Source: Pseudomonas mandelii (GTDB lineage: Bacteria > Pseudomonadota > Gammaproteobacteria > Pseudomonadales > Pseudomonadaceae). Taken from it: DNA of 64,000 nt. The notes beneath the pieces were generated by a model, which was not told the origin of the DNA, searched no databases, and was given only the letters and a program-made list of their open reading frames with translations. Numbering within the stretch: position 1 is the stretch's first letter; each line of letters begins with the position of its first letter. Below, one piece after another: positions 40,011-64,000 of this stretch. The translations under genes and the position numbers were made by a program. The DNA is taken from contig NZ_LT629796.1 of NCBI RefSeq assembly GCF_900106065.1, positions 992,001 through 1,056,000 on the forward strand. Reading direction: 5' to 3'.

Positions 40011-40013
40011 GCT

Positions 40014-42602: not shown

Positions 42603-42611
42603 TGGCTTTCC

Positions 42612-44009
42612 TTATTCACAGACGTTCATCGCGCTCATCAAATCAGTCGTCGCAAGGCCGTTCTCAATTTGTTTCTCACGCAGTCGGTGCGCGGCCGCTG
42701 CGAGTTCCGCCAAGACCTCTCGGGTCGTAGCTTGCGTATAAACCTCCTGACTTTCCAATGAGGCGTGATGCATAAAGCGCCGAATCAATGTTTTATCCAC
42801 GCCTGCGGAACGCAGTCGCCGGCCATAGGCGTGCCGATGTCCATGCGGTGTTGTTCCCAGTGCCTTGCCCACTGTGAGGCCTATGCGCTCGCATGCCGCA
42901 GCATGAGCCTTGTTGTATTGAGTCAGCGTATACATCGCGCCGACGGGAGCCCGGTACAGATTGATGAAAGCGAAAGGGTGGTCACGCTCAAAGCGCACGA
43001 CTTGGTCGAGGTAGCGTCGCCAGAGGTGCAGAAACCATTCGCCATACTCCGGTAGGAACCAATAGGCCTGCTTGTAATAGGGGGCGTCGTGTATACCGCC
43101 TTTCCACCCAGCATGACGGCGATCAAGTAAATCAGTACGCGGCGCCAAGCCGAACTCATTGGCAAGGTATTCCGCTCGATTACCTTTTCGGGATTTTCCA
43201 CGTTCGTCATACCAATCACTGGGGGCTGCACCGTGGCTTGGATGGTGAATGAGGACCTTGGCTTGGCCTGGGTTCGCGGAATCGGGGAACACGTCGGGGA
43301 TATAGAGGTGGAAAGGCTCGGATTCGCGGAAGCCGGCGCCGTGCTGCAGCAATGTGATGAGCATGCCACGGTAATCGTAGCGACCGGCTGTACGAAATCC
43401 CTTCATCAGAAGCTCCTCGAAACGCTCCTCTGGAAATGCCGGCGGTTCGTCTTTTTCAACTTTGGGGAGACGTCGACCACGCACTCGGTGTCCCGTTTCC
43501 AGCGATACGTTCGCGGCCCACGTATGCCCAAGAAATGCCTTGCTGCGCCGATACTGGTACGCAGCCTCGTCGGTCTGTCGGTCGAAGGCGCCACCCGCAT
43601 AGCGGGGATTCACCTTGGGCGCCTCGGGGCGCATCTCGCCGAGCCATTCGAAGAAGTCGGTCAGGTGGGTGATGATGTGCGAGGCATCCTGTGGCGACCG
43701 CGGAGCCCAGCATAACCCGCTAGGATCGATTCCGGTTTCGCGGTCGAACGTCCCTGTGTAGAGGCGCTGAGCAAAGTTCTGAAACAGGTGATAAGTGTCG
43801 CGCTCGGCGGGGTTGCTTTGCAGGTACTCGAGAAACATTCGCACCGAGCGTGCGACCTTTGTCATCCACGTCAGACTTCGGTCGTGACTGTGGTGAAGGC
43901 AGTAATCGAGCAGTGGTTCCAGCACACCGCAGGACGTCAACAAAGCTGGAAGCTCTGTGTAGGCACCAGTGGCATCTGAGTAGACGCGAGTCTTTACGGT
44001 CACAAACAT
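42612..44009 (-). CDS. gmtY: Gamma-mobile-trio tyrosine recombinase GmtY
   Basis: A 465-residue site-specific tyrosine recombinase, first gene of the trio. The N-terminal SAM-like core-binding domain spans about residues 40-150. The catalytic set is complete: R228 (GAGFRESE), H389 and R392 (PHGHRHAYG), the H of MHHASLES, and the nucleophile Y424 (SQEVYTQ). It should cut and rejoin the ends of the island. The ATG at 44009 opens MFVTVKTRVYSD. It is preceded by a small co-directional gene and, further up, by the nested dyad at 44335-44429. Confidence 0.9.
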   Translation of the reverse strand: MFVTVKTRVYSDATGAYTELPALLTSCGVLEPLLDYCLHHSHDRSLTWMTKVARSVRMFLEYLQSNPAERDTYHLFQNFAQRLYTGTFDRETGIDPSGLCWAPRSPQDASHIITHLTDFFEWLGEMRPEAPKVNPRYAGGAFDRQTDEAAYQYRRSKAFLGHTWAANVSLETGHRVRGRRLPKVEKDEPPAFPEERFEELLMKGFRTAGRYDYRGMLITLLQHGAGFRESEPFHLYIPDVFPDSANPGQAKVLIHHPSHGAAPSDWYDERGKSRKGNRAEYLANEFGLAPRTDLLDRRHAGWKGGIHDAPYYKQAYWFLPEYGEWFLHLWRRYLDQVVRFERDHPFAFINLYRAPVGAMYTLTQYNKAHAAACERIGLTVGKALGTTPHGHRHAYGRRLRSAGVDKTLIRRFMHHASLESQEVYTQATTREVLAELAAAAHRLREKQIENGLATTDLMSAMNVCE

Positions 44010-46744: not shown

Positions 46745-47051
46745 GTGAGTCTCTGCCGGCATTGATTACTAAGGAATTACTGAAATGCGCAAGGTTCGGC
46801 ACCTCACTTCGAGCTTAAATGGGAATCTAGTCTTCGAAACTGGATTTGCCAGTTGTTTCGGCCTTTACTCAAGATTCGCTATGCCCGGAGAAAACGATTG
46901 TCGGTTTGATAGTCCCCTTCCGTCGAAGCGAATTCGTTGAGCTATGCTGAGAGTCACCGAAAGCGATGTATTTGCTTCAGTTACTGGCCACCAGGGATGG
47001 AACCTGTATGTATTCAGTTCTTTATATCCAAAACTTAATCGGAATGGCCGG

Positions 47052-49337
47052 ATGAGCAGTCTGGTCACTCGCGTTAATCGGCGCATCTTGATCGTTGACG
47101 ACACACCGTCAATTCATGACGATTTCCACAAAACTCTCGGCCCGGCAGCGGATCCCGAAAATGGCTTGGCGTCTGCTGAAGAAGCCCTGTTTGGCAGTAC
47201 CGCCGCCGCGCTGCAAGACTTCGAACTCGACTCTGCCTTTCAGGGCCTCGAAGCCTTGGACAAGGTCGAAGAGGCCCTGGCCAAGGACCTGCCCTATGCC
47301 ATGGCTTTCATCAACATGCGCATGCCCCCCGGCTGGGACGGCCTGGAAACCATCGAACGGCTCTGGCAGGTCGACCCCAAGCTGCAAGTCGTACTCTGCA
47401 CCGCATACTCCGACTACTCCTGGGAAAACATCGCCGAACGCCTGGAACTGGGTGATCGCCTGCTGATCCTGAAAAAGCCTTTCGATGCCATCGAGATCCG
47501 TCAGATGGCCAGTACGCTGACGGTCAAATGGCAGATGACCGAAGACGCCGCCCTTAAAATGAACCTGCTGGAACAGGCTGTCGAAGAAAGGACCCGCGAG
47601 CTGTCCGACGCTAACATCATTGTGCAGAACAGCCCGACCATTCTGTATCGGCTGCTTGGGGAGCCATCGTTCCCCTTGACGTATATCTCTCACAACATCA
47701 CCAAGTTCGGTCATGTCGCGGCCAATCTGGTGGCATCTGCCAACTGGGCCCGGGAGCTGATTCATTCCGAAGATCTGGGAAAACTCGACGCAGCCATGGC
47801 CCAGGTTCTGGACCGGCATGCCGCTGGTGCATCCATCGAGTTCCGCCTACGTACCGGTGATGGCCTGTGGCGCTGGGTGGAAAATCGCTATGTACCGGTA
47901 CGCGATGACGACGGGCGTTTGCTCGAGGTTGAAGGAATCATCATCGACATCAGCGAACGCAAGCAGGCCGAAGAGCACATCACCGAGCAGGCACGCACCG
48001 ACGCGCTGACCGGGATGGCCAACCGCGCGACGCTCAACGAGCGCCTGCACCAAGCCTTCGCCGCCACCCGCCGTGGCGCGACGGGGTTTGCGGTGTTCTA
48101 TCTGGACCTGGATCACTTCAAACGGATCAACGACAGCTTCGGCCACACAGTGGGGGATTTGCTGCTGCAGGAGGTTGCCCGACGCATCAAGGCTTGTGTG
48201 CGAGAAAACGACGTGGTGGCACGCATGGGCGGTGACGAATTCACGATTCTTCAGCTCGATGTCAGCGACCCGACACAGGCGGCGACCCTGGCCGCCAAGG
48301 TTCTCGATACGTTGGGGCATCCCTATGCGCTCGACGGCAACAACCTGCGGATCTCGGTCAGCATCGGCATCAGCCTCTACACCAGCAGCAGTGGCGTCAG
48401 TGCCGACAGCCTGCTGGACCAGGCCGACATGGCGCTGTACCGCTCTAAGGACCAGGGCCGCAACCAATACAACTTTCATTCCAAGGAGATCGACCAGGAA
48501 GTACTTGACCGGTTCACCATCGCCAACGAGTTGAAACTGGCCATCGAGCGGAACGAACTCGAATTGCACTACCTGCCCGAGGTGGACCTGAGTTCAGGCA
48601 GGATTCTGGGTATGGAGGCCCAAGTGCGCTGGAACCACCCTCAGCGAGGGCGGCTGAGTGCTGACACCTTCCTCCCCGCCGCGGAAAAAACCGGTGCCAT
48701 CATCGCCCTGGGACATTGGGTGTTGGACCGGGCCTGCCAGCAGATGCGGCAGTGGCGGGACCAAGACATGGCGCCGCCGGTGATCGCGATCAACCTGTCC
48801 CTGGCCCAACTAAAAAGCGGCCCGGAACTCATTTATGACGTGCTGCGCACCACCGTCCACTGGAACCTTTGTCCCTGGGATCTGCGGTTCGACGTGACCG
48901 AAGCGACCCTGGCGCAGACCAAGTGGAGCCACAACGATGTGCTTCCGCGTTTATGCGCGCTGGGGGTGAAAGTCGCCATCGACGACTTCGGCACCGAATA
49001 CTCGTCGTTCGACTACCTCAAGACTTATAAAATCAACCACATCAAGATCGCCCAGAACTTCATCGACAACGCGATCCGTGACCCGGCCGGCGCCACGACC
49101 CTACGCGCGATCATCAACTTCGCCCGTGAAATGGGGATCGGGGTCATCGTCGAAGGCGTGGAAACTCAGGAACAATGTGACTCATTGATTTCTACAGGCT
49201 CGCCTATAACGGCGCAGGGCTTTTATTTCAGTAAAGCCGTTAGCCCCCGTCAAGCCAGCGAGCTCTTGCAGATCGGCAGTATTGATCCGGATGGAAGCAG
49301 TCAGACTGCCAGCCCCTCATCCGAGGGCCCGAAATGA
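47052..49337 (+). CDS. REC-PAS-GGDEF-EAL response regulator with degenerate REC and EAL
   Basis: A 761-residue cytosolic protein. REC (residues 10-165) keeps the acidic pair D16/D17 and the Lys in LKKPF, but the phospho-acceptor position is N88 (AFINMRMPPGWDG). PAS lies at about 195-310, and GGDEF (315-480) has intact MGGDEF. EAL (490-740) departs from consensus: MEAQVRW for EALLRW, DVTE for ExTE, KIAQNF for KIDRSF and DDFGTEYSS for GYSS. It should make c-di-GMP rather than destroy it, without receiver phosphorylation. The ATG at 47052 is chosen because it starts the REC family text; 36 extra upstream codons are open. Its stop overlaps the next start (ATGA). Confidence 0.85.
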   Translation: MSSLVTRVNRRILIVDDTPSIHDDFHKTLGPAADPENGLASAEEALFGSTAAALQDFELDSAFQGLEALDKVEEALAKDLPYAMAFINMRMPPGWDGLETIERLWQVDPKLQVVLCTAYSDYSWENIAERLELGDRLLILKKPFDAIEIRQMASTLTVKWQMTEDAALKMNLLEQAVEERTRELSDANIIVQNSPTILYRLLGEPSFPLTYISHNITKFGHVAANLVASANWARELIHSEDLGKLDAAMAQVLDRHAAGASIEFRLRTGDGLWRWVENRYVPVRDDDGRLLEVEGIIIDISERKQAEEHITEQARTDALTGMANRATLNERLHQAFAATRRGATGFAVFYLDLDHFKRINDSFGHTVGDLLLQEVARRIKACVRENDVVARMGGDEFTILQLDVSDPTQAATLAAKVLDTLGHPYALDGNNLRISVSIGISLYTSSSGVSADSLLDQADMALYRSKDQGRNQYNFHSKEIDQEVLDRFTIANELKLAIERNELELHYLPEVDLSSGRILGMEAQVRWNHPQRGRLSADTFLPAAEKTGAIIALGHWVLDRACQQMRQWRDQDMAPPVIAINLSLAQLKSGPELIYDVLRTTVHWNLCPWDLRFDVTEATLAQTKWSHNDVLPRLCALGVKVAIDDFGTEYSSFDYLKTYKINHIKIAQNFIDNAIRDPAGATTLRAIINFAREMGIGVIVEGVETQEQCDSLISTGSPITAQGFYFSKAVSPRQASELLQIGSIDPDGSSQTASPSSEGPK

Positions 49338-49573
49338 ATATGTCTGATAGTGCTGCTAACCGGCGAATTCTGATCATCGACGATACGGCCTCAATTCATC
49401 AGGACTTTCGAAAGTTTCTCCGCCAAGAGCAGGGTGATGAGATACCCGTAGCCTCCATCGAAAACGTGTTGTTCGGAGCCGCTCGGTCTGAACGGCAGAC
49501 CTTCGAAATCGACTCGGCTTATCAGGGGCGCGAAGCGCTAAACTTAGTGAATACATTTTGTTCTCCACCCTGA
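49334..49573 (+). pseudogene. Truncated receiver-domain gene
   Basis: A 79-residue frame that repeats the N-terminus of the gene before it: RRILIIDDTASIHQDFRKFL and SAYQGREALNLV. After about residue 72 the receiver text stops and NTFCSPP and a stop follow. The phospho-acceptor region is absent, so this is the remnant of a second, tandem REC protein cut by recombination. It is coupled to the upstream gene by ATGA. About 86 nt of unassigned sequence follow. Confidence 0.7.
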
Positions 49574-49659
49574 ATTGAGTTCGGGGACATCAATGAGACG
49601 AATTGTTATTTTCTAGTCTTCTCGGGGGCAGACTGTACCGACACATGGAGGTCCGGCGC

Positions 49660-52191
49660 ATGAAGTACAGACAGCCTGGGTATACAGCGATTGCTTTGGT
49701 CATTGATGATGATCCCTTCATCCGGCTGCTCGCTCGCGACGCCTTGGAAAAGATCGATTTGAAGGTAGAGGAGGCGGGCGATGGGGCATCAGGTCTGTCC
49801 GCCATTGCTGCACTGGCGCCCGATATTATCCTGCTCGACGTCATGATGCCCGATATGGATGGCTTTGCAGTGTGCCGCCAGGCGCTCCTGATCCCTGGCG
49901 CCGAGCTCACCCCCGTCCTGATGCTCACCGCCCTTGAGGACACAGACTCAATCAATCAAGCCTATGAAGCTGGCGCCACCGATTTCATCAGTAAACCCAT
50001 CAATTGGTCGATACTGGGGCATCGGGTGCGCTACATGTTGAAAGCGAGCGCCTTGTTGCGCAATGTCATCAAGAGTGACTTGCAGTTGGCGAAAGCCCAG
50101 CATATGACCTCAGTTGGGAGTTGGGAGTGGAGTATCGAAGCCGACATCACTTCCTGGTCGGAGGAAATGTATCGGATCTGCGGGGGCATATCCGGGACGT
50201 TTGATCAAAGCTATCAAAGTTTCCTTGCGCTGGTGTATCCGGCAGATCGGCAACAGGTCGAAACGGCGATGCGCAATGCGCTCGAACAGGTGAGTGCTTA
50301 CGATGTCGAGCATCGCTTGCTGCGCCCGGACGGCACGGAGCGCATCGTCCATGGGAAAGCGGAAGTCATCTGCGACGCCAATGGCAAGCCCGTTTTGATG
50401 TCCGGAACGCTGCAAGACATCACATTACGCAAGCAGGCGGAGTTACACATCAGTCATCTTGCCAACTACGATACGCTAACCGATCTTCCCAACCGGAATC
50501 TGTTGCATGACTGCATGGCGCAGTCGATCTTGCTGGCCCGTCGGACCGGGCAACAGTTGGTCATGCTATGTCTGGACCTGGATGGATTCAAGTTCATTAA
50601 CGACGGCTTCGGCCATGCTGTCGGGGACACCTTGCTCAAGATGGTCGCCATCCGGCTTCAGGGGGCGATCCGTAAGTGCGACACGGTGGCGCGCCTGGGC
50701 GGGGACGAATTCGTGCTCATCTTGCTCGGCCTGACCGACGACGGCAGGGACCTGGGGTCCATGCCGCAAAGAGTACTGGACACGTTTGCGCAGCCCTTCA
50801 TCGCCGACACTCATGAACTGCACGTGACCGCGAGTATTGGCGTGAGCGTCTTCCCCGGCGATGGCGACACCAGTGACACCTTGCTCAAGAACGCTGATGT
50901 GGCCATGTATAGTGCCAAGGAGAAAGGACGCAATTGCTTCCAGTTTTACGCGCGAGACATGAGTCTGCGCGCTGAGCGTCGTGTGGAGTTGGAAAATGCG
51001 CTTCGCGCGGCGCTCGAACGACAGCAATTCGAACTCCATTATCAGCCCAAAGTCGATCTGCGCAGTGGCAGGATCAGCGGAGTGGAAGCGCTATTGCGCT
51101 GGAACCGCCCGGGTCACGGCATGGTGCCGCCAGACAGCTTCATTGGCCTGGCAGAAGAGACGCGGCTGATCGTCCCGATCGGCGAGTGGGTCTTGCGCAC
51201 GGCCTGTGCCCAGGCGAGAAAGTGGCACGATATGGGCTTCGACGGTTTATCCGTCGCAGTCAATTTGTCGGCACGCCAGTTCGCCCACCAAGACATCGTG
51301 CAACTAGTGCGACAGGTGCTTGCAGAGACGGAACTGCCGGCCTGCTACGTTGAGCTCGAGCTCACCGAGAGCGTGCTCATGAGCGACAGCGCTGCCATGC
51401 TCAAAGTACTGCGCGAAATCAAGGAAGTCGGGGTCGTGCTCACGCTCGATGACTTCGGTACCGGCTATTCTAGCCTGGCTTACCTCAGGCGTTTCCCGAT
51501 CGATGTACTCAAGATCGACCGCAGCTTTATCCACAACGTTACCACCGACGTCGACGATGCCTTGCTGGCCAAGAGCATTCTCTTGTTGGCCCAGTCCTTG
51601 AAATTGAAAACCGTTGCTGAGGGCGTGGAAACGCAGGGGCAGCTGGATTTTTTAAGCGCCAATAAATGCGATTCAGTGCAAGGCTTTTACTTCAGTCGGC
51701 CGGTTACGGCGGAAGCGCTGACGGCGATGCTGAGCAGTGATCTTAGCCTGCCTGTGATGCCGCAGGTGGCTGGGCGCGAACGCACCGTGCTGCTACTTGA
51801 CGATGACCCAGATGTACTTAACGCACTCGCGTGCCTGTTTCGCAAGGACGGTTATCAAATTCTTCAGACCACGACGGCGGCCGAAGGCTTCGAACTGCTA
51901 GCCACGCATAAGGTGCAAGTGATCATCAGCGATCAGCACATCACCTCGATGAACGGCACCGCTTTCTTGGGCAAGGTGAAGGAACTGTATCCCGATACAA
52001 TCCGCATTATTCTGTCCGGCTATACGGAGCCGAAGTCGGTCATCGACGCGATCAACGGCGGCGCCGTGTATCGCTTCTTGACCAAACCGTGGGACGACCA
52101 TGTCTTGCGCGATCAGTTGCGGGAAGCGTTTGAACACCACTGGCTGATCTACGGAAAACCAATCCAGGACGATCAGACCCAGGCCTGCTGA
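49660..52191 (+). CDS. REC-PAS-GGDEF-EAL-REC c-di-GMP signalling protein
   Basis: An 843-residue cytosolic protein with five domains. The first REC has D60 ([11 protein letters not shown]) as acceptor. PAS lies at about 155-265. GGDEF (about 275-430) has LGGDEF. EAL (about 445-690) has all key text ([36 protein letters not shown]). A second REC (about 705-820) has [11 protein letters not shown], as in RpfG-type receivers. Both catalytic domains look active, so it may switch between synthesis and breakdown. GGAGG 8 nt before the ATG at 49660 decides the start. It lies 40 nt before the hybrid kinase, its likely partner. Confidence 0.92.
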
Positions 52192-52231
52192 GCGGCACGC
52201 CGGCGCCGGACCAACATGGAAGGAGAGAGTT

Positions 52232-54712
52232 ATGTTTTTGCTGTCGAAACGGTATTTGGCGGCCTTGCTCTTACTGTGCGCAGCGGGCTTGACCTTGGCC
52301 CAGGAACCCAGCGAGAGAGTGCTGGTTGTCGGCAGCGAAGAAGAGTTCCCGCCGTTTTCCACAGGAACCACGAGTGCCACAGCTGGCGGCTTTACAGTGG
52401 AATTGTGGAAGGCTGTGGCTAAGGAGAGCCTCCTGAACTATACGATCCGGGTCGGCCCCTTCAGTCAGATTCTTCAGGAATTCAAAGACGGGAAAATCGA
52501 TGTCCTAATCAACCTGGCACAGTCCGAGCCGAGGCGCCAGTTCGCCGATTTCACTGTGCCGCATGTGACGGTCAATGGTGCCATTTTCGTGCGCAAGGGC
52601 GAGTCCGGTATCGGCGCCGAATCGGATCTGGCGGGCAAGTCGATCATCGTGGTGCAATCTGATCTGGCCCATGACTACGCGATCTCGAAAGGCTGGCAGG
52701 AGCAACTCGTGGTAGCACCGACAACAGCGGACTGCTTCAGACTGCTCGCCGCTGGCAAACATGACGCGGTCCTGATCAGCAAACTGGTCGGCATGCAGAC
52801 TCTGCAGACGCTCAAGATCGACAATGTCCGGCCCCTGAACATCAAAGCCGGCTTTGCACAAAAATTCTCGTTTGCCGTACACAAAGGTAACGCCGATTTG
52901 CTGGCCAGCATCAATGAGGGTATGGCGATAACCAAGCTGGACGGCACTTATGATGCGATTCACAACAAGTGGTTTGGCATCTATGATGAGCGTAGCGTCT
53001 CGCTACACGACACGCTTCCGTATTTGCTGCCGATGATGCTGACGCTGCTGATTCTGGTGGCCTATATGCTCCATCGGCGTCGCACTGAAAACGCCCTGCG
53101 CCACGCCAATGAACGCCTCGAAGAGCGGGTTGCGCTGCGCACGAGCGAACTGGAACAGGCGAAGAACGTGGCCGAGTCGTCGAGCCGCGCCAAAGGTGAT
53201 TTCCTCGCCAACATGAGTCATGAAATTCGCACACCGATGAATGCGATCATCGGCATGTTGTACCTCACACTCAAGACAGAACTCAATCCGAAACAACGCA
53301 ATTATCTCGAAAAAATCGACATCTCCAGCAAACATCTGCTCGGCGTCATCCATGATATTCTCGACTTCTCCAAGATTGATGCGGGTAAACTGGACTTGGA
53401 GTTGATCGATTTCGACCTGAAAGCCGTACTCCAGAACGTAGTCGATCAGGTGTCATTCAGGGCGTTCGAAAAGAGCCTCCGGCTGCGCCTCGAGATCGAT
53501 CCTGGTGTGCCGCGTTACTTGCGCGGCGACCCGCTGCGCCTGACCCAGGTATTGCTCAATTTCGCCAACAACGCCGTAAAGTTCGCCTCCAGCGGTGACA
53601 TCGTCATCAGCGCTTTCGAGGCCGAAGCCGGTAGCAACGACAGTCTGATTCGTTTTGAAGTACAAGATAGCGGTGTTGGCATGAGCGCCGCACAGCAAGA
53701 GACGCTGTTCCAGGCATTCCAGCAGGCCGACACCACGACCACGCGCCGCTACGGCGGCACCGGTCTCGGGCTTATCATCAGCAAGCAGTTGGTGACGATG
53801 ATGGGGGGCGAGGTGGGCATGCAGAGTCAACTGGGTCAGGGCAGCACGTTCTGGTGTGCGATCCGCTTCGTTTTTGGCCGCGCCCCGCTTGGGCTCGACG
53901 ACCCGCAGACATTGGCGCGGCCGACCTGGTTGCGAGGCGCACGTATCTTGCTCGCTGAAGATAACCTGTTCAACCAGCAAGTGTCGATCGACTTACTGGA
54001 GGATGCCGGAGCCGTAGTGTTGCTGGCTAATAACGGAAGCGAAGCGCTTGACCTGTTGGGCCACGAGCGCGTTGACTGCGTGCTGATGGATATCCAGATG
54101 CCAGAGATGGATGGGCTTGAAGCGGCCCGGCGCATCCGTTCCGAGCCGTCCTTTGACGGATTACCGGTGATTGCATTGACAGCCAATGCGCGCAAAGAGG
54201 ATCGCGAGCAGTATATCGCCGCTGGCATGGATGATTTTGTCAGCAAACCGATCGAGCCAGAAGTGCTGTACGCAACGCTTCGAAAATGGCTGCCGGCGCA
54301 GGTGCCAGAGAATCGGACGGCCGCTGCACACCAGCTCCAACGGTCCATGGACGCCATGCCGCAGACCGGGTCGGAGGGTATCGATCTGTCTGTGCTAGCC
54401 AAACTCTGCGTCAATAACCCGGAACGTATTGCGCGCTATGTCGACGTGTTCATGGACTCGGTGCAGCAGGCCGGGGACGAGATCGAATCCGCACTGCAGC
54501 GCGAAGACCTCGCGGCATTGAGCGCCTTAGGGCATAGAATCAAGTCCTCTGCCAGCGCCGCAGGTGCGATGGGGCTGGCCGACCTGGGGCGGACGCTTGA
54601 GACGGTGCAGACGGACAGCAGCCTGGAGCAGGCCCGGTATCTGATCGCTCGACTGCCATTTGTTCTAGAGAAAATCAGGGGGCAGGTGGCAGCGTATACA
54701 AGAAAGCGCTGA
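52232..54712 (+). CDS. Hybrid sensor kinase with periplasmic SBP_bac_3 sensor (EvgS/BvgS type)
   Basis: An 826-residue inner-membrane kinase. After a signal peptide, one periplasmic solute-binding domain (residues 28-255, [14 protein letters not shown]) is followed by a helix (about 268-286), a coiled coil, HisKA with H330 ([10 protein letters not shown]), HATPase (DSGVGM, GGTGLGL), REC with D620 ([11 protein letters not shown]) and Hpt with H768 (LGHRIKSSA). The whole phosphorelay is intact. It is 40 nt downstream of the REC-GGDEF-EAL-REC gene and lacks a dedicated DNA-binding regulator, so that protein is the obvious output. AAGGAGAGAG precedes the ATG. Confidence 0.93.
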
Positions 54713-55214
54713 CGGCATCGCCGCGGCCTCCGCGCCGCGAGCGGGCGCCGCAAAGCGACATCTAGACGATTACCCACAGTGATGGCTTTCGCGAGAATGT
54801 TCTTGAATTAACGTAAAGGTGAGCGGACGGCAGCTCCGATAATGGATACCGAAATGAGACTTGCATCGGCATCGGCATTTGTGAGCGTGCTTTGAAGAGC
54901 GCCAAAAACGGAGGTGATTCCTCCTCGACATTGGTTACAGTTGAACAACCGCTGTCGGCCCAGAGTATGTAAAAACGCTAAATCTCGTTTCAGTTTTCGA
55001 GGCTGAGAGCCAGCCAAGCTTCGCGGCCTGATCAAAGGGACGATGCTTTCTTGGTGAGCTTAACTGGCCCAGCGGCCAGATGTTCGTCGACCGCTTCCTC
55101 AGCACGCCGATGTTCTATCCCCCGCTTCACGTTTGAACCGTGCTAGCAGGTCAGACCGGAGGCGAGCGCCAACGCTGGTGTTGACCCGAAGGTCGGCCTT
55201 CTGTACTTGTGTCG
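54713..55214. other. Non-coding or scrambled interval
   Basis: No intact gene. On the minus strand, TLGRQRLFNCNQCRGGITSVFG (about 54890-54985) faintly resembles the zinc-ribbon start of an IS1595-type transposase, but it is too short to name. An inverted GAGGTGATTCCTC lies near 54910. The interval looks like recombination debris between the kinase gene and the SulP remnant. Confidence 0.3.
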
Positions 55215-55856
55215 TCATTGCGTTTGTCGGCGGACGCCCGGCAATGATCTCCGCTGCGACAGGTGCTATGGCGCTGCTCATAGTAAAGCTAGTTATGGTG
55301 CACGGCTTGCAGTTCCTGCTGGCGGCCGGACGTACTTCTGAATCTGGATACCTTGCTTATCATCCTGCCATACTCGGCGGGCTTAGTCGTCGTCGGCCTC
55401 CTCGAGTCGATGATGACCGCAACCATTGTCGACGACCTCACTGACACGATCAGCGACAAGAACCGCGAGTGCTAGGACCAAGGGATCGCGAATATTACTG
55501 CGGGCCTGCTCGGGGTTATGGCGGGGTGCGCGATGATCGGCCTATGCTCAACGTAAAATCAGGAGGCAGGACGCGCCTCTCCACCCTAAGCGCGGGCGTA
55601 TTGCTCCAGGATGCTGTTCATGGGCGACTGCCTGGCAAGCATTCCCATGGCAGCGTTGGGCGCGGTGATGATTATGGTATCCATCACTACCTTCAGTTGG
55701 CAGTTCATTCGCAACCTGAAGCAATACAACTTCTGGGACATAACCACGGTAGCTGCGTTGGACAAAGTGGTGCTGAAGCTTCGCCGCAACGCTATAGAGG
55801 TGGACGTGATCGGCACGAACCGGGCGATAACCACCCTGATAGTCAGAGGCCCATAG
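55215..55856 (+). pseudogene. SulP-family transporter remnant
   Basis: Pieces of a sulfate-permease-family protein appear in different frames. [20 protein letters not shown] (about 55225-55290) comes first. Next is [20 protein letters not shown] with [15 protein letters not shown] followed by a stop (about 55365-55475), then ITAGLLGVMAGCAMIG. Last is an STAS-like end, VMIMVSITTFSWQFIRNLKQ to IEVDVIGTN. Frameshifts, an in-frame TAG and missing segments show that the gene is dead. A live SulP would be about 500 residues; little more than a third is left. Confidence 0.7.
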
Positions 55857-55889
55857 CTGGTCGGTGCTGGCTTCTGACTCACGAGGGCG

Positions 55890-56254
55890 ATATGAATAAG
55901 CGTCATCTAGACTATGCCGCGGCGCACATTCAGCACATGCAAAAGCTCACCCTCGCATCCGGCTGTCGTATCAGTGGCGGCCAGATACTTCCGGCAAATA
56001 CCCGTAAGACCAAAAATCGAGTGACCGCCCACCTGCGGTTAGCAGCGGTAACGGTCGGAAGAACGAACACCGCACTGGGTGCATTCTATCGGCGTCTCAC
56101 GGTTCGAATTGGCAAAGCCAAGACGGTCACGGCTACCGCTCGAAAGATTGCGATCCTGTTCTAAAACGCCATGCGCTTCGGGATGAATTATCGAGACCCC
56201 GGAGCCAATCACTATGAGCAAAAATATCGGGAACGAGAGGTGAAAGGAGTGTAA
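55890..56254 (+). mobile_element. IS110-family transposase remnant (C-terminal part)
   Basis: The frame reads SGCRISGGQILPANTRKTKN, RVTAHLRLAAVTVGRTNTAL and GAFYRRLTVRIGKAKTVTA, the typical C-terminal Transposase_20 text of IS110/IS1111 elements. A TAA at 56162 replaces a sense codon, and the same frame then continues NAMRFGMNYRDPGANHYEQKY to a TAA at 56252. The N-terminal DEDD catalytic half is absent. Confidence 0.7.
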
Positions 56255-56301
56255 CGACACGCCGCTGAATTGGGCTGACGCTGCAACCGGTGGATGGTGT
56301 T

Positions 56302-56756
56302 TCTTAGGGAGGCCGCCGCGTTATTTGCCAAGGAGTGCGGCTGAAGTACGCCTTTATTAAGCGGCTAGCGGGTGACTACTCCATTCGACGACTTTGCCTG
56401 ACGCTGAAGGTTCATCCCAGCGGCTACTACGCGGGGCTGTCCGAACCTAAATCTGCACGAGCCAAAGATGATCAGCGACTGCTCGGTTTGATCAAGCATT
56501 CCTGGTTGGAGAGCGATGGTGTTTATGGTTATCGCAAGATCCATGAAGACCTGTGCGAGGTTGGCGAGAACTGTGGCCTCCATCGGGTGACCAGGTTGAT
56601 GCGCGTTGTAGGTTTGCGCTCTCAGACGGGATACCGACGGCGATCGGGAAAATCATCAAGATGTTTTACAACCCAAAAACGACGTCATGGTTTCAACAAT
56701 CAGCTATCACCGGTAGAGTTTGAAAAGCGTTACACCGCGAGCTTGGAGAGTGTCTA
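56302..56756 (+). mobile_element. IS3-family OrfB remnant with internal deletion
   Basis: The start of an IS3 OrfB is clear: KYAFIKRLAGDYSIRRLC, VHPSGYYAG and DGVYGYRKIHEDL. After SQTGYRRRSGK the text jumps to the end of the protein (QKRRHGFNNQLSPVEFEKRY) in a shifted frame. The DDE core, roughly 150 codons, is lost. The element cannot move by itself. Confidence 0.8.
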
Positions 56757-56762
56757 GAAAAC

Positions 56763-57030
56763 CCGAGGCGATTCAAGTCGATCATCCAGGTGTCCAGATA
56801 AATCAGGTTGTCCTGGTTAGGTTTGAGGTGCAAGCGTTCCAGAACAGGTGGGAAGTGCCGTTATCGCGCCAGTCACGGAAGCGACAACATTGACCAAGGC
56901 CCGAACCGATCAGGCATGTCGCGCCATGCCCCCCAGAGCACAGAATCCAGAGGATGCCGTTAAGCATGAGTCGACCGTCGAATTGATGATTAGTGGGCAC
57001 AGTGAAGAACGGTGGTATTGCTTGCACTTC
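56763..57030 (-). mobile_element. IS5-family transposase remnant (N-terminal part)
   Basis: The minus strand reads NHQFDGRLMLNGILWILCSG, then in shifted frames MPDRFGPWSMLS, RDWRDNGT and LIYLDTWMID. This is the DUF4096-type N-terminal region of IS5-family transposases. At least two frameshifts are needed. 57031-57272 shows no gene; it holds the promoter region of the next gene. Confidence 0.65.
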
Positions 57031-57272
57031 CTCTAATGGGTGTGAAATCATTTTGACATCAAACCGGAAATCCGGAAATCGCAAGAGGCTAGATCGACGC
57101 TTAACGAGGTAAGTGAAAACTCTCAAAGGCCATTTTTTCAAGGCTAAAGCGGCAACCATTCTTTTAGAAACCACGGCGCATCCAAATGGGTGCACAATAA
57201 CTTATATAACGGACAGCGGTAAGTGAACCACTCACCGTCCTGCAGATTCGCTTTTGCAGTTGAAGGATCTAA

Positions 57273-59852
57273 ATGGCTGACCTCAACCTTTTCAACGCTC
57301 TCAAGACACCCTGTGGCTCCAGTACCGGTTTTGCTCGCCGAACCATGATGCCGTTCGCTGCCCTATTGCTGCTGGTATTCACATTGGCGGCAGTCATACT
57401 GGTCAAGACCGCGCACGACCAAAATGACCAGGCCCGCGACCGAAGTCTGTTCTTCGCCGAAAAGGCGCTGAAAATTCGCCAGGACAAACTGCAACAGTCT
57501 ATTGGTGATTATGCCTTCTGGGGCGATGCCTACCAGAATCTGCACGTTCATATCGATTTGGAGTGGGCCTATACAAGAGGCAATGTGGGAGCGACTCTGT
57601 TTGAGAATTTTGGCTATGAAGGGGTATTTGTCGTCGCGCCAGGCAATCGCACAGTCTACGCGATGATTGACGGGCAGTTGCAGCCAACGGAAATCCAACA
57701 ATGGCTGCAAGGAGATGTCACCGAGTTACTGGAGGAAGCCAAAGCTCGGGCGGCCGATGAGCAAAGCGTTGTGAAGGTTTTTCAAGTCGCGGGGCGACCT
57801 GCCTTGGTCGTTGCCGCAAGCCTCACACCGGGCACTGATCCGTCAGTGCGGAAAGTGCCCGGTCCCCCTTCGGTGCTGTTGTTCGTAGACGTCCTCCGTC
57901 CGGACAAGCTTCTGAGTTTGGGCCAAGACTATGCCTTGACGCAGCTGCGTGTAGCCCGCGATGAAGAGGATGCAGCGCTCGAGCCCAGCCTTAGTATACC
58001 CACGGCTGACGAATCGTCCTTTCTGCTTCGCTGGGATCCCGTACGGCCGGGCAGCCCGCTGCTTACCTTCTTATTACCCGTGCTTGGTATCGCCGGTCTG
58101 ATCATTGGCGCTCTGAGCTGGCTGGTGATGCGCCATGCGATGGCTACCGCGAGGCTGCTGGATGACAGCTACGCCTCACTCGTTGTAAGCGAGGCACGCT
58201 TCCAGGATATCGCGCAAGCGAGCTCCGACTGGCTTTGGGAAACGGATGCGGAGCAACGTTTCCGTTACTTGTCCGGGCGATTCGAGGAAATTACCGGGCA
58301 TTCGCCCGAAGTCTGGTTGGGTAGGCCGTTAAGTGATTTTCTGAAATTTGAGTCAGATTCGCTGGCCAGCTGGGTGACCGATCCCAAGATAAAGGCTTCG
58401 CCCTACACGCCTCTTCCATGCAGCTATCAGTCAGCCAGCGGAAAGTACTGTCTGTGTAATCTGGTTGTGCGTGCGATAAGCAGCCCTGCTGATTTGCACG
58501 GTTACCGGGGAACCGCACGTGATATTACAGCAGAGCTAGAAAACCGAGCACGCATTCAGCAATTGCAGCAATATGACGCTCTGACTGGTCTGCCCAATCG
58601 TAAACATCTGCAAGAGCGGCTTGAAACGCGGATAAAAAGTGAGCACAACAGTTCTATTGCAGTTCTAAACATAAGTCTTGAGCAATTCAAGCATGTCAAT
58701 GATAGTTTTGGCCTTTCGGTTGGAGACCAAGTGCTTGTAGAGCTCTCGCATCGCCTGGAAGGTTTTCTGCGCACCGAGGATTTACTAGCACGTCATGCCG
58801 GTGACGAGTTCATCGTGTTGCTTGATGGTGGGTTTGCCCTTAATGAGTACATTGAAGGACTTTGCAGCCGACTCATCGAATGTGTGGAGCGCCCATTCTG
58901 GGTTGTACATCAGCAGGTCTTCATAAGTGCCAGGATCGGCATAGCGATCTCCCACAAGGATAAGGACGCCACACACGACCTTCTTCGGTCTGCCGAGATC
59001 GCGCTGTATCGCGCCAGACGCCAGATTAAAAGCAAATGGTGTTTCTTTACCCCCGAGATAGATCGCCAAATTAGCGAAGAGAAGCAGTTGGAGAGCGATC
59101 TGTACTTTGCCATCAGTAACGATCAACTATGCTTACACTTCCAGCCGCGATATCGCACCAGTGATCGACATCTGAGCGGAGTAGAAGCCCTGGTGCGCTG
59201 GCAGCATCCACAGCGAGGACTGCTCAGCCCCGGTGATTTCATTGTGCTAGCCGAGCAAAGCGGATTGATCATCCCTCTAGGTGGCTGGGTTTTGCGTCAG
59301 GCCTGTATTCAAGCGATGAGCTTTCCAGAACCTATTTTTGTCTCGGTGAACCTCTCGCCTAAGCAATTTCGTACCCCCGGCTTGGTTGCACAGGTTCAAA
59401 ACATTCTGGATGAATCCGGCCTACCCGCCGCTCGTTTGGAACTGGAAATAACCGAAAGCATGATGTTCGAGGACGCCGAAGGCGCTCTTGCCACCCTGAA
59501 TGAACTCAAGGCTCTCGGGATTCGAATGTCTATGGACGACTTTGGTACCGGATATTCCTCGCTCAGTTACTTGCACAGGTATCCTTTCGACATCCTGAAA
59601 ATCGACCGTAGTTTTACCGCCCGCCTCGATGATGCCGAAGGCGGTCTGGCAGTCGTCCTAGCCATCGTTTGGCTTGGGCATGCCTTGTCAATGCAGGTAA
59701 CGGCTGAAGGAGTGGAGAGCGAAGAGCAACTGAGCCTACTTAACGATATGGGCTGTGATGAAGTCCAGGGGTTCCACCTCAGTCGTCCGATTTCTATGGA
59801 GCAGCTCTGTGCACTACTGACGCAGGCCCACACGAACACTATTGAAACCTGA
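57273..59852 (+). CDS. Membrane-anchored CHASE4-PAS-GGDEF-EAL protein
   Basis: An 859-residue protein. A membrane helix (residues 26-46) is followed by a periplasmic CHASE4-like domain (about 47-265, DYAFWGDAYQNLH), a second helix (about 270-290), PAS (about 310-420), GGDEF (about 430-590) and EAL (about 605-845). The cyclase motif reads HAGDEF, with Ala for the first Gly, so synthesis may be weak. EAL motifs are intact ([36 protein letters not shown]). It is probably a c-di-GMP phosphodiesterase that senses a periplasmic signal. GAAGGATC precedes the ATG. It is a relative of the truncated gene at 63073. Confidence 0.9.
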   Translation: MADLNLFNALKTPCGSSTGFARRTMMPFAALLLLVFTLAAVILVKTAHDQNDQARDRSLFFAEKALKIRQDKLQQSIGDYAFWGDAYQNLHVHIDLEWAYTRGNVGATLFENFGYEGVFVVAPGNRTVYAMIDGQLQPTEIQQWLQGDVTELLEEAKARAADEQSVVKVFQVAGRPALVVAASLTPGTDPSVRKVPGPPSVLLFVDVLRPDKLLSLGQDYALTQLRVARDEEDAALEPSLSIPTADESSFLLRWDPVRPGSPLLTFLLPVLGIAGLIIGALSWLVMRHAMATARLLDDSYASLVVSEARFQDIAQASSDWLWETDAEQRFRYLSGRFEEITGHSPEVWLGRPLSDFLKFESDSLASWVTDPKIKASPYTPLPCSYQSASGKYCLCNLVVRAISSPADLHGYRGTARDITAELENRARIQQLQQYDALTGLPNRKHLQERLETRIKSEHNSSIAVLNISLEQFKHVNDSFGLSVGDQVLVELSHRLEGFLRTEDLLARHAGDEFIVLLDGGFALNEYIEGLCSRLIECVERPFWVVHQQVFISARIGIAISHKDKDATHDLLRSAEIALYRARRQIKSKWCFFTPEIDRQISEEKQLESDLYFAISNDQLCLHFQPRYRTSDRHLSGVEALVRWQHPQRGLLSPGDFIVLAEQSGLIIPLGGWVLRQACIQAMSFPEPIFVSVNLSPKQFRTPGLVAQVQNILDESGLPAARLELEITESMMFEDAEGALATLNELKALGIRMSMDDFGTGYSSLSYLHRYPFDILKIDRSFTARLDDAEGGLAVVLAIVWLGHALSMQVTAEGVESEEQLSLLNDMGCDEVQGFHLSRPISMEQLCALLTQAHTNTIET

Positions 59853-60115
59853 GGCAGGTATTACGGCCAGCGACAATGCTTTTTTACTCGACGTATAAGC
59901 AAGAACACTATCACCCAACATTGGCATAGACATATTCGACTTTATACAAGACGACCGTGCCACACATCTTGCCGCCACACAGCAAGATCGGCGTTTTTCA
60001 AGGTGGTTGCCGCCCCCCATTTTCTCTTGGGCTTGAAATGCAAAAAAAAGCCCACACTTAGTGTAGGTGGCACCTTGCCATGAGCCTTGACGGAGCCAAA
60101 CTCCAGGAGAAAATA

Positions 60116-60388
60116 ATGACACAGGAAAACGCTCAACACGGCCAAGGTGTAGGGAACAAGCCTTCGACCACCAACATAATCGTCAACGCTCGCCCCAGAC
60201 ATGTCGAAGGCACTGAAATCACCTACGCTACGGTTGTTCAACTGGCCTTCGGCGAAAACAATTTGGAGATCATCTACACGGTCTCCTACACAGCACCGAA
60301 GATGCCGGATGGGACTCTGGTTGAGGGGCAATCAGTCGCCATCGAGAACGGGATGAAGTTTGATGTCAAACGCACCAACCGCTCCTAA
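60116..60388 (+). CDS. Multi_ubiq-type ubiquitin-like beta-grasp protein, single domain
   Basis: A 90-residue protein. After a polar N-terminal tail (about 18 residues), one beta-grasp domain reads TNIIVNARPRHVEGTEITYA to IENGMKFDVKRTNRS. The pattern INARPHxVxGxxITYxxVVxLA with a terminal MKFDV strand is that of the Multi_ubiq family, usually present in several tandem copies. The C-terminus is RTNRS and has no di-glycine. AGGAGA 6 nt before the ATG at 60116 decides the start over one 12 codons earlier. Its 3' end overlaps the E1-like gene by 26 nt. It is the presumed conjugated modifier of the cassette. Confidence 0.8.
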   Translation: MTQENAQHGQGVGNKPSTTNIIVNARPRHVEGTEITYATVVQLAFGENNLEIIYTVSYTAPKMPDGTLVEGQSVAIENGMKFDVKRTNRS

Positions 60389-61571
60389 TCCGTCCATTGC
60401 ACGACTGATCGCTGAAGGTTTTGAAATCGATATTCTGCACCAGCATCTGCTGGTGTATTCGATCCCGTACCTCGACCAGCAGCGCAATTTGAAGCTTGGT
60501 ACCCTGGTTTGTCCCTACGTCGAACTAGGCGATCAAGACACCCGTCCGGCTGATCACACTATGTGGCTACAAGGGGACCTCCCTCATATGGCCGATGGCA
60601 GGCCGATGAGTCAGGTGGTTAACCATTCGAATACTCACACCTTGTTCGACCAGTTTCAGGTCCAACATTACCTGTCCAACAAAAATGGCGAGCCTGACTT
60701 CCCCACGAACTTTTACGACAAAGTGGCCCACTACTACATCCTGTTTGTGAGCCAGGCGCGCGTCCACTATCCAAACGCAGACGGCCGAACCGGGATCGTT
60801 CACCCGCAGCGGGATCCAAATTCAGTTTTCAGATACCCAGATACGGCTTCGGCCCGAGCTGGCATCACAGCAGTGACCCAGCGACTTGCGGCCGAGCGTG
60901 TTGCGATCGTTGGGACTGGTGGTACCGGCAGCTACATCCTGGATCTACTTGCCAAAACACCCATCAAAGAAGTCCACCTGTTCGACGGGGATGACTTCGA
61001 ACCTCACAACGCCTTCCGCACGCCAGGAGCGGCCTCGCTCGAAAACTTGCAGGCAAGGCCCAAGAAGGTTGACTACTTGCTTGAAGCCTACGACCCCATG
61101 CGTCGGGGGATCATTCCTCACGCATATCACCTTGAGCAGCGTAATGTCAACGAGCTGGCCGGCTTCAACTTTGTCTTTGTGGCGGTAGACAACGGCCCGT
61201 CACGCAAGCTCATCGCAGATTACCTGGTAGCCGAAGGCATCCCGTTCATCGACGTGGGCATGGGGGTGGAGCAGGAGACCGAAGACGGTGGAGTCGTATC
61301 ACTATCCGGTACCTGCCGGGTGACCCTGGCCACCTCCGACAAGCATGACCATCTACAGCAACGCATGGATTTCCGTGAAGACAAAGAAGAGGTGCTCTAT
61401 CGGAGCAACATCCAGGTCGCAGACCTAAATGCCCTCAACGCCACCATGGCGGTCCTGCGCTGGAAGCAATTCATGGGGTTCTACAGCGACCAGCAGCAAG
61501 CCCATAATTTAAGCTTCGCCCTATCACTTCAGTCTTTGGGACGCGCCGAATGCCCACCGTTCACCGGATGA
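60363..61571 (+). CDS. E1-like ThiF-family adenylyltransferase with DUF6791 N-terminus
   Basis: A 402-residue protein. Residues 10-165 form the DUF6791 region (IARLIAEGFEIDILHQHLLVYSIPYL, HTMWLQGDLPHMADG). Residues 170-390 form a ThiF/E1 Rossmann domain with the ATP loop GTGGTG at 184-189, VHLFDGDDFEPHNAFR, and VFVAVDNGPSRKL. The CxxC zinc pairs common in E1 enzymes are absent. Candidate thioester Cys residues are in SGTCRVT or AECPPF. It should adenylate the C-terminus of the small beta-grasp protein encoded upstream. No E2 or JAB gene is nearby, so the DUF6791 part may supply a transfer function; that is inference. Confidence 0.85.
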   Translation: MSNAPTAPNPSIARLIAEGFEIDILHQHLLVYSIPYLDQQRNLKLGTLVCPYVELGDQDTRPADHTMWLQGDLPHMADGRPMSQVVNHSNTHTLFDQFQVQHYLSNKNGEPDFPTNFYDKVAHYYILFVSQARVHYPNADGRTGIVHPQRDPNSVFRYPDTASARAGITAVTQRLAAERVAIVGTGGTGSYILDLLAKTPIKEVHLFDGDDFEPHNAFRTPGAASLENLQARPKKVDYLLEAYDPMRRGIIPHAYHLEQRNVNELAGFNFVFVAVDNGPSRKLIADYLVAEGIPFIDVGMGVEQETEDGGVVSLSGTCRVTLATSDKHDHLQQRMDFREDKEEVLYRSNIQVADLNALNATMAVLRWKQFMGFYSDQQQAHNLSFALSLQSLGRAECPPFTG

Positions 61572-62026
61572 AGCTTCAGAAGATCCAGCCCGTTTTTGTT
61601 GAGTTCATACCCGAGAAAATCGAGCCGGGCAAGCTGTACATCAGCGAGAAGTACGAGACAGCGATCCACAAGTGCTGCTGTGGCTGCGGTGAAGAAGTAG
61701 TAACACCCCTGTCACCCGCTGAGTGGCGCCTGAGCAAAGGCCCGAGCGGGGTATCGCTGTCCCCGTCGATCGGTAACTGGGATTACCCCTGCCGCTCTCA
61801 CTACTTCATCGCAGAGAACGCGATTGTGTGGGCCGGCTCAATGAGTGACCGACAGATCCAATGGGTGAAGGCGCGGGACCAGCGGGACATGGAGCGGCAT
61901 ATCGCTCATCGCAACTTAAGGCACCAGGAAGCCCAAAATGCCGCGCAGGAACCAGCCGTTTCATCCGGCTTCGGCGCCATGGTTCAGGTAGCGATTGACT
62001 GGCTCAAGTCTTTATTCAAACGGTAA
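61568..62026 (+). CDS. DUF6527 family protein, putative zinc-binding partner of the Ub-like cassette
   Basis: A 152-residue protein. LQKIQPVFVEFIPEKIEPGKLYISEKY is followed by KCCCGCGEEV and a downstream YPCRSHYFI, which together look like a Cys/His zinc site. The C-terminus is a helix with a hydrophobic face. DUF6527 genes accompany Multi_ubiq and ThiF genes in many bacteria; the biochemical role is not known. I take the ATG that overlaps the E1 stop (ATGA); another in-frame ATG lies 6 codons earlier. This is the last gene of the three-gene cassette. Confidence 0.8.
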   Translation: MKLQKIQPVFVEFIPEKIEPGKLYISEKYETAIHKCCCGCGEEVVTPLSPAEWRLSKGPSGVSLSPSIGNWDYPCRSHYFIAENAIVWAGSMSDRQIQWVKARDQRDMERHIAHRNLRHQEAQNAAQEPAVSSGFGAMVQVAIDWLKSLFKR

Positions 62027-62640
62027 GTGTCGCTACAGAGCGTACTCAAACAGGCCAGCCAAATGACTGCTGACACAAAGCTCAACATCGCCTGATAGTT
62101 CCTGGTTAGTCGCTCATATCTGATCGCTATCCGGCGGAACTGCTTCAACTTCTAGAAAAAGCGTTCCACCAGATGGCGAGTCTTGTACAGTTGTCGATCA
62201 AGGTTACGAGGGTTCAGGCGATTCTTTTTCGAGGGGATGATCGCCTCAGCGCCACGACGCTGGATGAAGTCGACAAAAGCGTCTGAGTCATGACCCTTTT
62301 CGGCCAAGACAGCCTCGAGGGCGAAACCCTCGATCAACGCTTCAGCCTGACCATATCCGAGGCTTGTTCAGGCGTTAATAGCAAGACGTCGACCGCGCCA
62401 TGAATCGTGGTACTCAGTCCCCCTTTGGACTTGCCCATGGCCTCGATGTACTGATCTGTTTTTTTGCCGCACTGTGATGATTAACCCGCACGATGCTGCC
62501 ATCCACCATCAAATGCTCTTGGTCAGCATCAGCAGCGAGTGCCTCCATCATGGGCCTTGCCTGGCAACAGATTCTTGATCCATTCCCATTGATCCTCATG
62601 ACGAAGCCTATGGCGACTCATCCGCTGCTTCAAGTCGACT
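62027..62640 (-). mobile_element. IS5-family transposase remnant
   Basis: The minus strand reads from RLRHEDQWEWIKN through LLPGKAHDGGT, EHLMVDGSIVRVNHHSA and LAEKGHDSDAFVDF to a C-terminal VERFF and IRYERLTRNYQAMLSF. This is almost the full IS5-family transposase text, but it is broken by several frameshifts and stops (for example near 62340 and 62440). It immediately follows the DUF6527 gene and probably marks a border of the cassette. Confidence 0.75.
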
Positions 62641-63072: not shown

Positions 63073-64000
63073 TTAAACATTGCGTTTATTGCCAGTCGTT
63101 TCTCCAACTTCCACCAAAGCGCTGAAAGCATCCATACTAAGCGGTCGACTTAGGAAATAACCTTGCCCCTCATCACACGACACTGCTTTGAGCAATTGAA
63201 GATGCTCGGCTGTTTCAATGCCCTCTGCGGTAACGGTGAGCGATAACGCGCGACCCAAGCCCACGATAGCCTGGATAATCGACATATTATCGTCGCTCTC
63301 AACGAGTTTGTTTAAAAAGCTGCGGTCTATTTTCAGCCCATCAAATGGGAAGGTGCGCAGGTAGCTCAGCGAAGAGTATCCCGTTCCAAAGTCGTCCATG
63401 GATATGCGTACGCCAAGACGTTTGAGCGTACGCATTACCTTAAGCGCACCTTCGGCATCTTCGAGCATAACGCCCTCAGTAATTTCGAGCTCTACTCGGG
63501 TAGGATCGATTCCAGAGTCGAATAGTATTTTCTGGAGGCGCTCTACCAAATTGCCTCGCTTGAATTCGCTAGGCGAAAGGTTAACCGATACGAACAGACT
63601 TTCCGGCCACCGCGCGGCATATCTGCAGGCGGTATCGATTACCCAGTTGCTCAAGGAAAGAATCAACCCGCTTTCTTCAGCAATGGGGATGAAGGTGTCG
63701 GGAGGTATCAAACCACGTTCAGGATGTTGCCACCGTACCAATGCCTCGGCACCGACCATCTGCCCGTCAGCGATGCGATAGCGCGGTTGGAAATGTAGCC
63801 GCAGCTCTCCGTGTTTGATCGCGAAACGCAGGTCGCTTTCCAAACGGCGGCGCTCAATGATCTTTGCGTTCATATCGCCCGCGTAAAAGCGCCAAGTGTT
63901 ACGACCTCCGGTTTTGGCCTCGTACAATGCGATATCCGCATAACGAAGCAGCTCGGTAGCCTCGCGAGCATCATTTGGCGCCATTGCGATGCCAATACTG
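63073..64000 (-). CDS. GGDEF-EAL protein, C-terminal part (runs off window)
   Basis: About 309 C-terminal residues; the frame is open to the window edge. The end of a GGDEF domain is visible (ADIALYEAKTGGRNTWRFY). A complete EAL domain follows, with [39 protein letters not shown] and AEGIET, so phosphodiesterase activity is likely. It ends SALVEVGETTGNKRNV. It is close in text to the EAL part of the gene at 57273. Upstream domains cannot be seen. Confidence 0.9.
   Translation of the reverse strand, partial: SIGIAMAPNDAREATELLRYADIALYEAKTGGRNTWRFYAGDMNAKIIERRRLESDLRFAIKHGELRLHFQPRYRIADGQMVGAEALVRWQHPERGLIPPDTFIPIAEESGLILSLSNWVIDTACRYAARWPESLFVSVNLSPSEFKRGNLVERLQKILFDSGIDPTRVELEITEGVMLEDAEGALKVMRTLKRLGVRISMDDFGTGYSSLSYLRTFPFDGLKIDRSFLNKLVESDDNMSIIQAIVGLGRALSLTVTAEGIETAEHLQLLKAVSCDEGQGYFLSRPLSMDAFSALVEVGETTGNKRNV

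Follow-up and report, generated by a model that had tools for sequence, protein, structure and literature searches.

A candidate Bub-related conjugation operon of the DUF6791 type with a serine-ended ubiquitin-like modifier in Pseudomonas mandelii

Introduction

The described bacterial systems closest to the locus reported here are the Bub operons (Gong et al. 2025; Ye et al. 2026; BubA, BubB and BubCD of Citrobacter), as presented in PMC13373217 and in the titles of PDB entries, and operon type 6e of Iyer et al. (2006), which according to row 6e of Table 1 of that paper (PMC1779556) comprises a polyUbl or a solo ubiquitin-like modifier (Ubl), an E1 with a 'domain X' that replaces JAB, and a metal-binding protein. 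Bil and type II CBASS (Cap2/Cap3) are also small defense operons with a ThiF-fold E1; PMC11354881 and PMC12355090 describe Cys-based E1/E2 in Bil, an E2-like domain in Cap2 and the presence of a deconjugating protease. The adenylation fold is further shared by MccB, ThiF and UBA5. Here, we analyze a three-gene cassette on a 64,000-nucleotide stretch of Pseudomonas mandelii DNA (contig NZ_LT629796.1, positions 992,001 to 1,056,000; hereafter, the window) that encodes a Multi_ubiq modifier, an E1-like protein composed of DUF6791 and a ThiF domain, and a DUF6527 protein.

The cassette has the Multi_ubiq modifier, the Bub-type ThiF domain and the DUF6527 partner in common with Bub. However, where the loci of Bub type used for comparison carry Prok-E2_E (BubB), a JAB domain fused to the E1 and a modifier with a Gly end, it has DUF6791 and a Ser end, without JAB fusion or Gly end; a Prok-E2_E gene or domain was not matched by hidden Markov model (HMM) in the sampled cassettes, and a diverged form of it as DUF6791 is conceivable. 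Type 6e resembles it in the Multi_ubiq-type modifier (solo in Alteromonas macleodii), the small metal-binding protein and the mobile distribution, but the type of 2006 also includes an inactive E2/RWD-like protein (PMC1779556). DUF6791 fills the place of JAB in the E1 fusion, and we infer that it is the domain X of type 6e. Unlike Bil and CBASS, the cassette has neither a JAB protease gene nor a conserved catalytic Cys in its E1. MccB, ThiF and UBA5 are not known to have a DUF6791 domain or a Multi_ubiq partner, and the peptide substrate of MccB has a last residue other than Gly. The operon class was already described in 2006 (PMC1779556); in the literature searched, the names DUF6527, DUF6791, PRK06153 and 'multiubiquitin domain-containing' did not occur. 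New here are (i) a coupled swap, among the sampled loci, of DUF6791 and a Ser end for JAB plus E2_E and a Gly end, (ii) the lack of an invariant Cys in the E1, and (iii) the naming of candidate residues, namely Ser90 of the modifier, Ser105, His65 and Tyr346 of the E1, and Cys36, Ser67 and His78 of the DUF6527 protein.

Results

The three genes form one conserved unit

All three open reading frames (ORFs; Table 1) are intact, adjacent and co-directional on the forward strand, in the order Multi_ubiq, DUF6791-ThiF, DUF6527; the first two overlap by 26 nt and the last two by ATGA, and the Pfam matches of all three proteins exceeded the curated cut-offs. An initial annotation, made from the letters of this DNA alone, had reported a compact three-gene cassette with these overlaps, these domains and a modifier ending in RTNRS, all of which proved correct.

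The family was represented by 94 loci (L015-L108, the window included); these and all further family counts are samples, drawn from genome, related-loci and plasmid tblastn searches. The modifier gene was present in 93 of the 94 loci and the DUF6527 gene likewise in 93, each time on the same strand as the E1. In the two loci where one of them is missing, the contig breaks off nearby: L090 begins 204 bases ahead of the E1, and L043 stops 343 bases behind it. For comparison, we used 26 Bub-type loci picked for diversity (L110 to L121 and L136 to L149; L122 and L123, with weak E2_E matches, and L124 to L126, below the cut-off, were omitted). HMMs for JAB and Prok-E2_E recovered both in 26/26 Bub-type loci, the same loci from which they had been built, and gave clear matches over the 94 loci only in L051, which encodes, on the opposite strand and about 2 kb from the DUF6791 cassette, a JAB-like E1 together with an E2_E-like protein (by Pfam, ThiF and a Prok-E2_E match below the cut-off). 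Since the partners are co-conserved, JAB and E2_E are not part of the cassettes and the downstream gene varies, the three-gene form is the form of the family, and the modifier, the ThiF-fold E1 and the DUF6527 protein constitute one conserved unit.

The host genome is a single 7.04-Mb contig with one copy of DUF6791; Prok-E2_E had no match in it at E 1e-3 (HMM search; 10 of 16 first-look candidates scored), and Prok-JAB matched in only three places, each more than 1.2 Mb from the cassette. The possibility, raised in the initial annotation, that an E2 or JAB gene had been deleted only here is rejected because the relatives' cassettes are likewise without a Prok-JAB or Prok-E2_E gene. Its description of the cassette as lacking E2 and JAB holds for genes of these two families, but 'without E2' may be wrong, as DUF6791 shows a faint, though colinear, similarity to Prok-E2_E (see below).

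Some minor observations belong here. L051, a contig labeled uncultured archaeon, carries both system types side by side (7001-8507 and 10571-12366). A marginal JAB-HMM match in L050 turned out to be a RadC-family protein, and a 42-aa ORF in L044 matched the E2 HMM at E 0.039. The rows of alignments A6 (28 rows) and A7 (11 rows) were picked by hand.

Modifier ends in the DUF6791-type and Bub-type loci

The window modifier is one Multi_ubiq domain (PF14452, E 4.4e-11) with the C-terminus KRTNRS, that is, with a terminal Ser and not Gly, in line with the earlier remark that it lacks di-Gly. All 93 sampled modifiers (a set with 89 distinct E1 rows that takes in the window, 13 genome loci and some near-identical ones) terminate in Ser and are without a tail to process; position -2 is K in 49, R in 28, Q in 15 and L in one, while position -4 is T in 86, S in six and A in one. 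The Ser end, being invariant in the sampled family, is therefore no defect of the window copy. The 26-nt overlap of modifier and E1 genes was found in 90/93 loci, and because the modifiers of the three loci without it also terminate in Ser, this residue is not explained by overlap with the E1 start alone.

Bub-type modifiers (26 loci), in contrast, terminate in Gly or run past it. Fifteen are fused to E2_E after xNG (10), TEG (3) or TDG (2), and among the 11 separate ones, five end in TEG, two have TEG plus a tail and four PG plus a tail. PDB constructs stop at the same Gly: BubA(155-229) ends in NNG, and BubB starts after it. In the loci sampled, a Ser end thus goes with DUF6791 and a Gly end with JAB plus E2_E, a rule which reduces the question of mechanism to single-residue tests. 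The last domain of PDB entry 9cd2 ('ZDHYS365 multi-ubiquitin domain protein') matched the window modifier with 36 bits, and its chain ends in TDKS, like the Ser-ended modifiers of the DUF6791 type, although it is a 222-residue chain with further Ubl sequence, compared with the 90 aa and one domain of the window modifier. On the strength of this match and end, the structure of a Ser-ended modifier has apparently already been solved.

An E1-like protein without an invariant cysteine

The E1-like protein matched DUF6791 (PF20590, E 6.6e-38) and ThiF (PF00899, E 2.5e-16) in Pfam, and in NCBIfam PRK06153.1-3 'hypothetical protein' over residues 1-396 (585 bits; cut-off 340). Its adenylation fold extends beyond the Pfam core to about residue 400, including Tyr346. 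The ThiF portion dominated the full-length fold search, and ThiF-like proteins were the top matches in a viral fold library. The window copy keeps the adenylation residues, and the adenylation Arg and Lys are present in all 71 aligned E1s (70 of 80 genome-contig loci left after redundancy filtering, plus the window). The window protein has three Cys (50, 318 and 397) and no CxxC pair, and the 71-row alignment holds no invariant Cys. The absence of CxxC pairs, correctly noted in the initial annotation, is nothing special, since 71/71 DUF6791 E1s and the E1s of 14/26 Bub-type loci are without them. Because the modifier does not end in Gly and no Cys is invariant in the E1, standard thioester chemistry is unlikely for the window protein, judging from these alignments; to this extent, the suggestion that conjugation uses different chemistry gains support.

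The DUF6527 protein

The third protein (PF20137, E 1.5e-22) contains the motifs Cys36-x-Cys38-x-Cys40, Pro66-Ser67 and Cys75-x2-His78, and is likely metal-binding. DUF6527 occurs beside both E1 types, DUF6791-ThiF and Bub-type. Cys36, Pro66, Ser67 and His78 are present in 65/65 cassette proteins (64 of 73 filtered rows plus the window; nine long or near-identical rows were removed by hand) and in 22/22 Bub relatives, Trp53 in 64/65 and 22/22, and Cys40 and Cys75 in 65/65 and 18/22. The Cys losses in four of the 22 Bub relatives were considered and rejected as proof of a non-metal role, as three have other Cys/His nearby. A structure model (pLDDT 91.7) had no Foldseek match under E 0.5, the VIA rows covering mainly C-terminal helices, and sequence searches of the PDB gave two matches with one protein (E 0.38 and 0.42) and none with the profile.

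On Synechocystis pSYSX, genes for Multi_ubiq, Prok-E2_E, JAB-ThiF and DUF6527 are consecutive. The zinc-finger example of the 2006 paper, sll6052, which we take to lie on pSYSX, is presumably this DUF6527 gene. The signature given in that paper has H-x2-C (PMC1779556), whereas the DUF6527 family has C-x2-H instead. Three Bub-type operons (L112, L140 and L142) have no annotated DUF6527 gene beside the E1; L112 and L142 nonetheless contain an ORF matching the DUF6527 HMM.

A tentative mechanism and its alternatives

Within DUF6791, His65, Ser105, Pro35 and Pro74 are invariant in the 71 rows, Lys107 and Tyr124 are kept in 70 rows each, and Lys120 in 68. The predicted elements are a helix (10-17), strands (21-25, 28-37, 43-51, 67-70, 86-95 and 98-104) and a second helix (117-135), an order that we presume to be compatible with E2/RWD folds. 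Using hhalign with 11 E2_E rows, residues 1-83 paired with 2-83, and the alignments from other set-ups were shorter but kept roughly this register. HH scores against E2_E lay between 16.0 and 19.8, and in four set-ups the score was attained by 1, 3, 7 and 14 of 150 column shuffles. E2_E has WSRH in 26/26 Bub-type loci, and its invariant Ser, like Ser105 of DUF6791, precedes the last helix (judged by eye for E2_E).

Several results weigh against an E2-like DUF6791 and the transfer route built on it: the HH probability was 0.9 to 3.1%, poorest with the largest E2_E set; the alignment stopped before Ser105 in every set-up, and the pairing of the DUF6791 Ser with the E2_E Ser was made by eye; the global profile alignment failed; a reversed E2_E control came near the real profile locally (14.8 versus 16.7) and surpassed it globally (5.1 versus 4.4); a PDB search with the DUF6791 profile gave only E 0.55 or worse; Pfam E2 families had no match in any of the 71 members at E 1; hhalign left Tyr346 unpaired with the position of BubCD Tyr370, a pairing also made by eye; and the accessible literature held no conjugation, phage or damage data on the DUF6791 type. 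On balance, we lean slightly toward an E2-like DUF6791, and propose that it may be a fused, Cys-free E2-like transfer domain.

In our judgment, there is about an even chance that the cassette is a mobile operon of the DUF6791 type, related to Bub and serving ubiquitin-like conjugation by a mechanism such as that proposed below. The E1, whose closest solved relative is BubCD, would adenylate the C-terminal Ser carboxylate of a ready-made modifier, which should not have to be matured by JAB, given that none of the sampled members extends beyond its Ser. Without cysteine, and as an oxyester, the acyl group would pass to the fused DUF6791 domain, where the best candidate acceptor is Ser105, aided by His65 and Lys107; the modifier would then be transferred to a target amine, and DUF6527 would serve as target adaptor or deconjugase. 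The Bub work of Ye et al. in NSMB (2026) is said to include an oxyester step. The full account, namely a widespread Cys-free and Gly-free system in which the invariant Ser end is adenylated and handed to the invariant Ser of an E1-fused, E2-like DUF6791, with conjugation or removal aided by DUF6527 and one E1-E2 polypeptide replacing E2 plus JAB, is put forward tentatively, as more apt to fail than to hold. If true, Ubl activation at a non-Gly end without a cysteine carrier would widen the known ubiquitin-type chemistry, in a very small operon.

A distinctly less probable explanation is that DUF6791 is a processing or editing domain replacing JAB, for example a Ser-based deconjugase, and that the E1 hands the modifier directly to targets. 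DUF6791 does occupy the JAB position in the E1 fusion, its Ser105, His65 and Lys107 could be catalytic in processing, and its similarity to E2_E is not significant by HH probability; however, it shows no clear similarity to JAB, with HH scores of 10.3 to 14.9, under the E2_E range, and tailless modifiers speak against processing. The interpretation offered in the initial annotation is partly supported. As to the comparison of both proteins with E2, JAB and RING folds that it had suggested, DUF6791 has a weak likeness to E2_E and a lower one to JAB, and the DUF6527 model found no Foldseek counterpart at the limit given above.

An improbable reading is MccB- or ThiF-like chemistry, in which the activated non-Gly-ended modifier would yield a small-molecule or nucleotide adduct and not a protein tag. 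MccB, PaaA and ThiF are indeed among the fold matches of the E1. Yet BubCD fits better (in one fold comparison it ranked first, with ThiF no more than 1 Z unit behind), the Multi_ubiq domain is shared with solved multi-ubiquitin proteins, and the co-conserved DUF6527 is shared with Bub operons. We consider it quite improbable that the modifier is mainly a noncovalent oligomer or signaling platform gated by E1 adenylation; Gong et al. (2025) do name oligomerization of bacterial Ubls in their title, and a crude rule based on length put 38/93 modifiers above the size of a single domain, but Ser at all 93 C-termini, together with the adenylation Arg and Lys in all 71 E1s, argues otherwise. Least probable of all is that the window copy is left over from a mobile island and in decay, as its three reading frames are uninterrupted, have the length usual in the family and keep the conserved residues, despite transposase-like fragments on both sides and no regulator seen beside the cassette.

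Distribution and genomic surroundings

DUF6791 was present in 9/298 genomes of the genus and 8/398 of the phylum (the window genome counted in both). At least 580 of 595 matching genome-contig stretches encode relatives, and the best 80 were used; these 80 come from Pseudomonadota, Actinomycetota, Cyanobacteriota, Bacteroidota, Planctomycetota, Acidobacteriota, Nitrospirota, Chloroflexota, Verrucomicrobiota and others. Among 72,556 plasmid records, 129 matched the E1 (109 over at least 80% of its length), and six loci with relatives lie on viral contigs. The window E1 grouped with those of an Erysipelothrix metagenome-assembled genome and Vibrio (100/100) inside a 23-row, three-phylum clade (99/99), and eight other E1s of the same genus (L015-L022) fell elsewhere in the tree; this scattered placement suggests spread by horizontal transfer.

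Table 1 Features of the cassette and its surroundings in the window
Feature	Positions	Strand	Details
AGGAG, likely ribosome-binding site of modifier gene	60105..60109	+	six bases upstream of ATG
Modifier gene	60116..60388	+	ATG 60116; stop ends 60388; 90 aa
E1-like gene	60363..61571	+	ATG 60363; stop ends 61571; 402 aa; DUF6791 + ThiF adenylation domain
DUF6791 domain	60393..60845	+	E1 residues 11-161; invariant His65, Ser105
ThiF Pfam core	60873..61262	+	E1 residues 171-300; GTGGTGS loop, Asp208, Arg219, Lys235, Asp276
DUF6527 gene	61568..62026	+	ATG 61568 (61550 possible); stop ends 62026; 152 aa
Gamma-mobile-trio recombinase set GmtX, GmtZ, GmtY	39351-44009	-	about 16 kb upstream of cassette
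332-aa protein	44753-45748		matches anti-phage sirtuin Dsr1, C-terminal part only

Neighboring genes were collected from 77 loci, near-copies omitted (upstream, 136 of 142 proteins, with 25 of 53 families listed; downstream, all 77, with 25 of 65 families listed). Upstream, Peptidase_M78 (IrrE) and HTH_3 were found 27 times each, WYL five times and UvrD helicase four times among the 136. These are the same kinds of genes as CapH+CapP and CapW, which PMC13373217 describes as DNA-damage regulators of Bub and CBASS, with CapW or CapH+CapP in 219/544 Bub operons. The upstream neighbors are presumably CapH, CapP or CapW, and expression in many relatives is probably induced by DNA damage. On a P. 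aeruginosa plasmid (L109), HTH and ImmA/IrrE genes are divergent from a DUF6791-type cassette. In the window, the gene upstream of the cassette encodes a GGDEF-EAL protein, and no CapH/CapP/CapW-type regulator was seen beside the cassette. In L083, L085, L101 and L105, the cassette adjoins a long upstream ORF (about 1,130 aa) that would, by its size, belong to the UvrD helicase / PD-(D/E)XK families of the neighbor scan. The downstream gene is not conserved, the commonest of the families listed being phage integrase (4 of 77); SMODS (2), AbiEii (1), SIR2_2 (1) and HSDR_N (1) are defense-type families seen there.

The initial annotation had placed the cassette on a recombinase-bearing island and read from this an anti-phage role, which is conjectural; recombinase genes are indeed present (Table 1). 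In L111, a Klebsiella plasmid, GmtX and an integrase also adjoin an operon of the Bub type. The 332-aa protein matched the Dsr1 model at positions 952-1261 (E 1.8e-14, far below the cut-off), and is possibly a fragment or a related stand-alone domain. Putative transposase-like remnants flank the cassette at 56335-56757 (HTH_21 match) and 62152-62599 (short minus-strand ORFs). The signaling genes around it form a dense cluster on a lower-GC stretch, with three GGDEF-EAL proteins and a hybrid sensor kinase upstream (46944-59852) and a predicted EAL-like ORF downstream (63073-63999).
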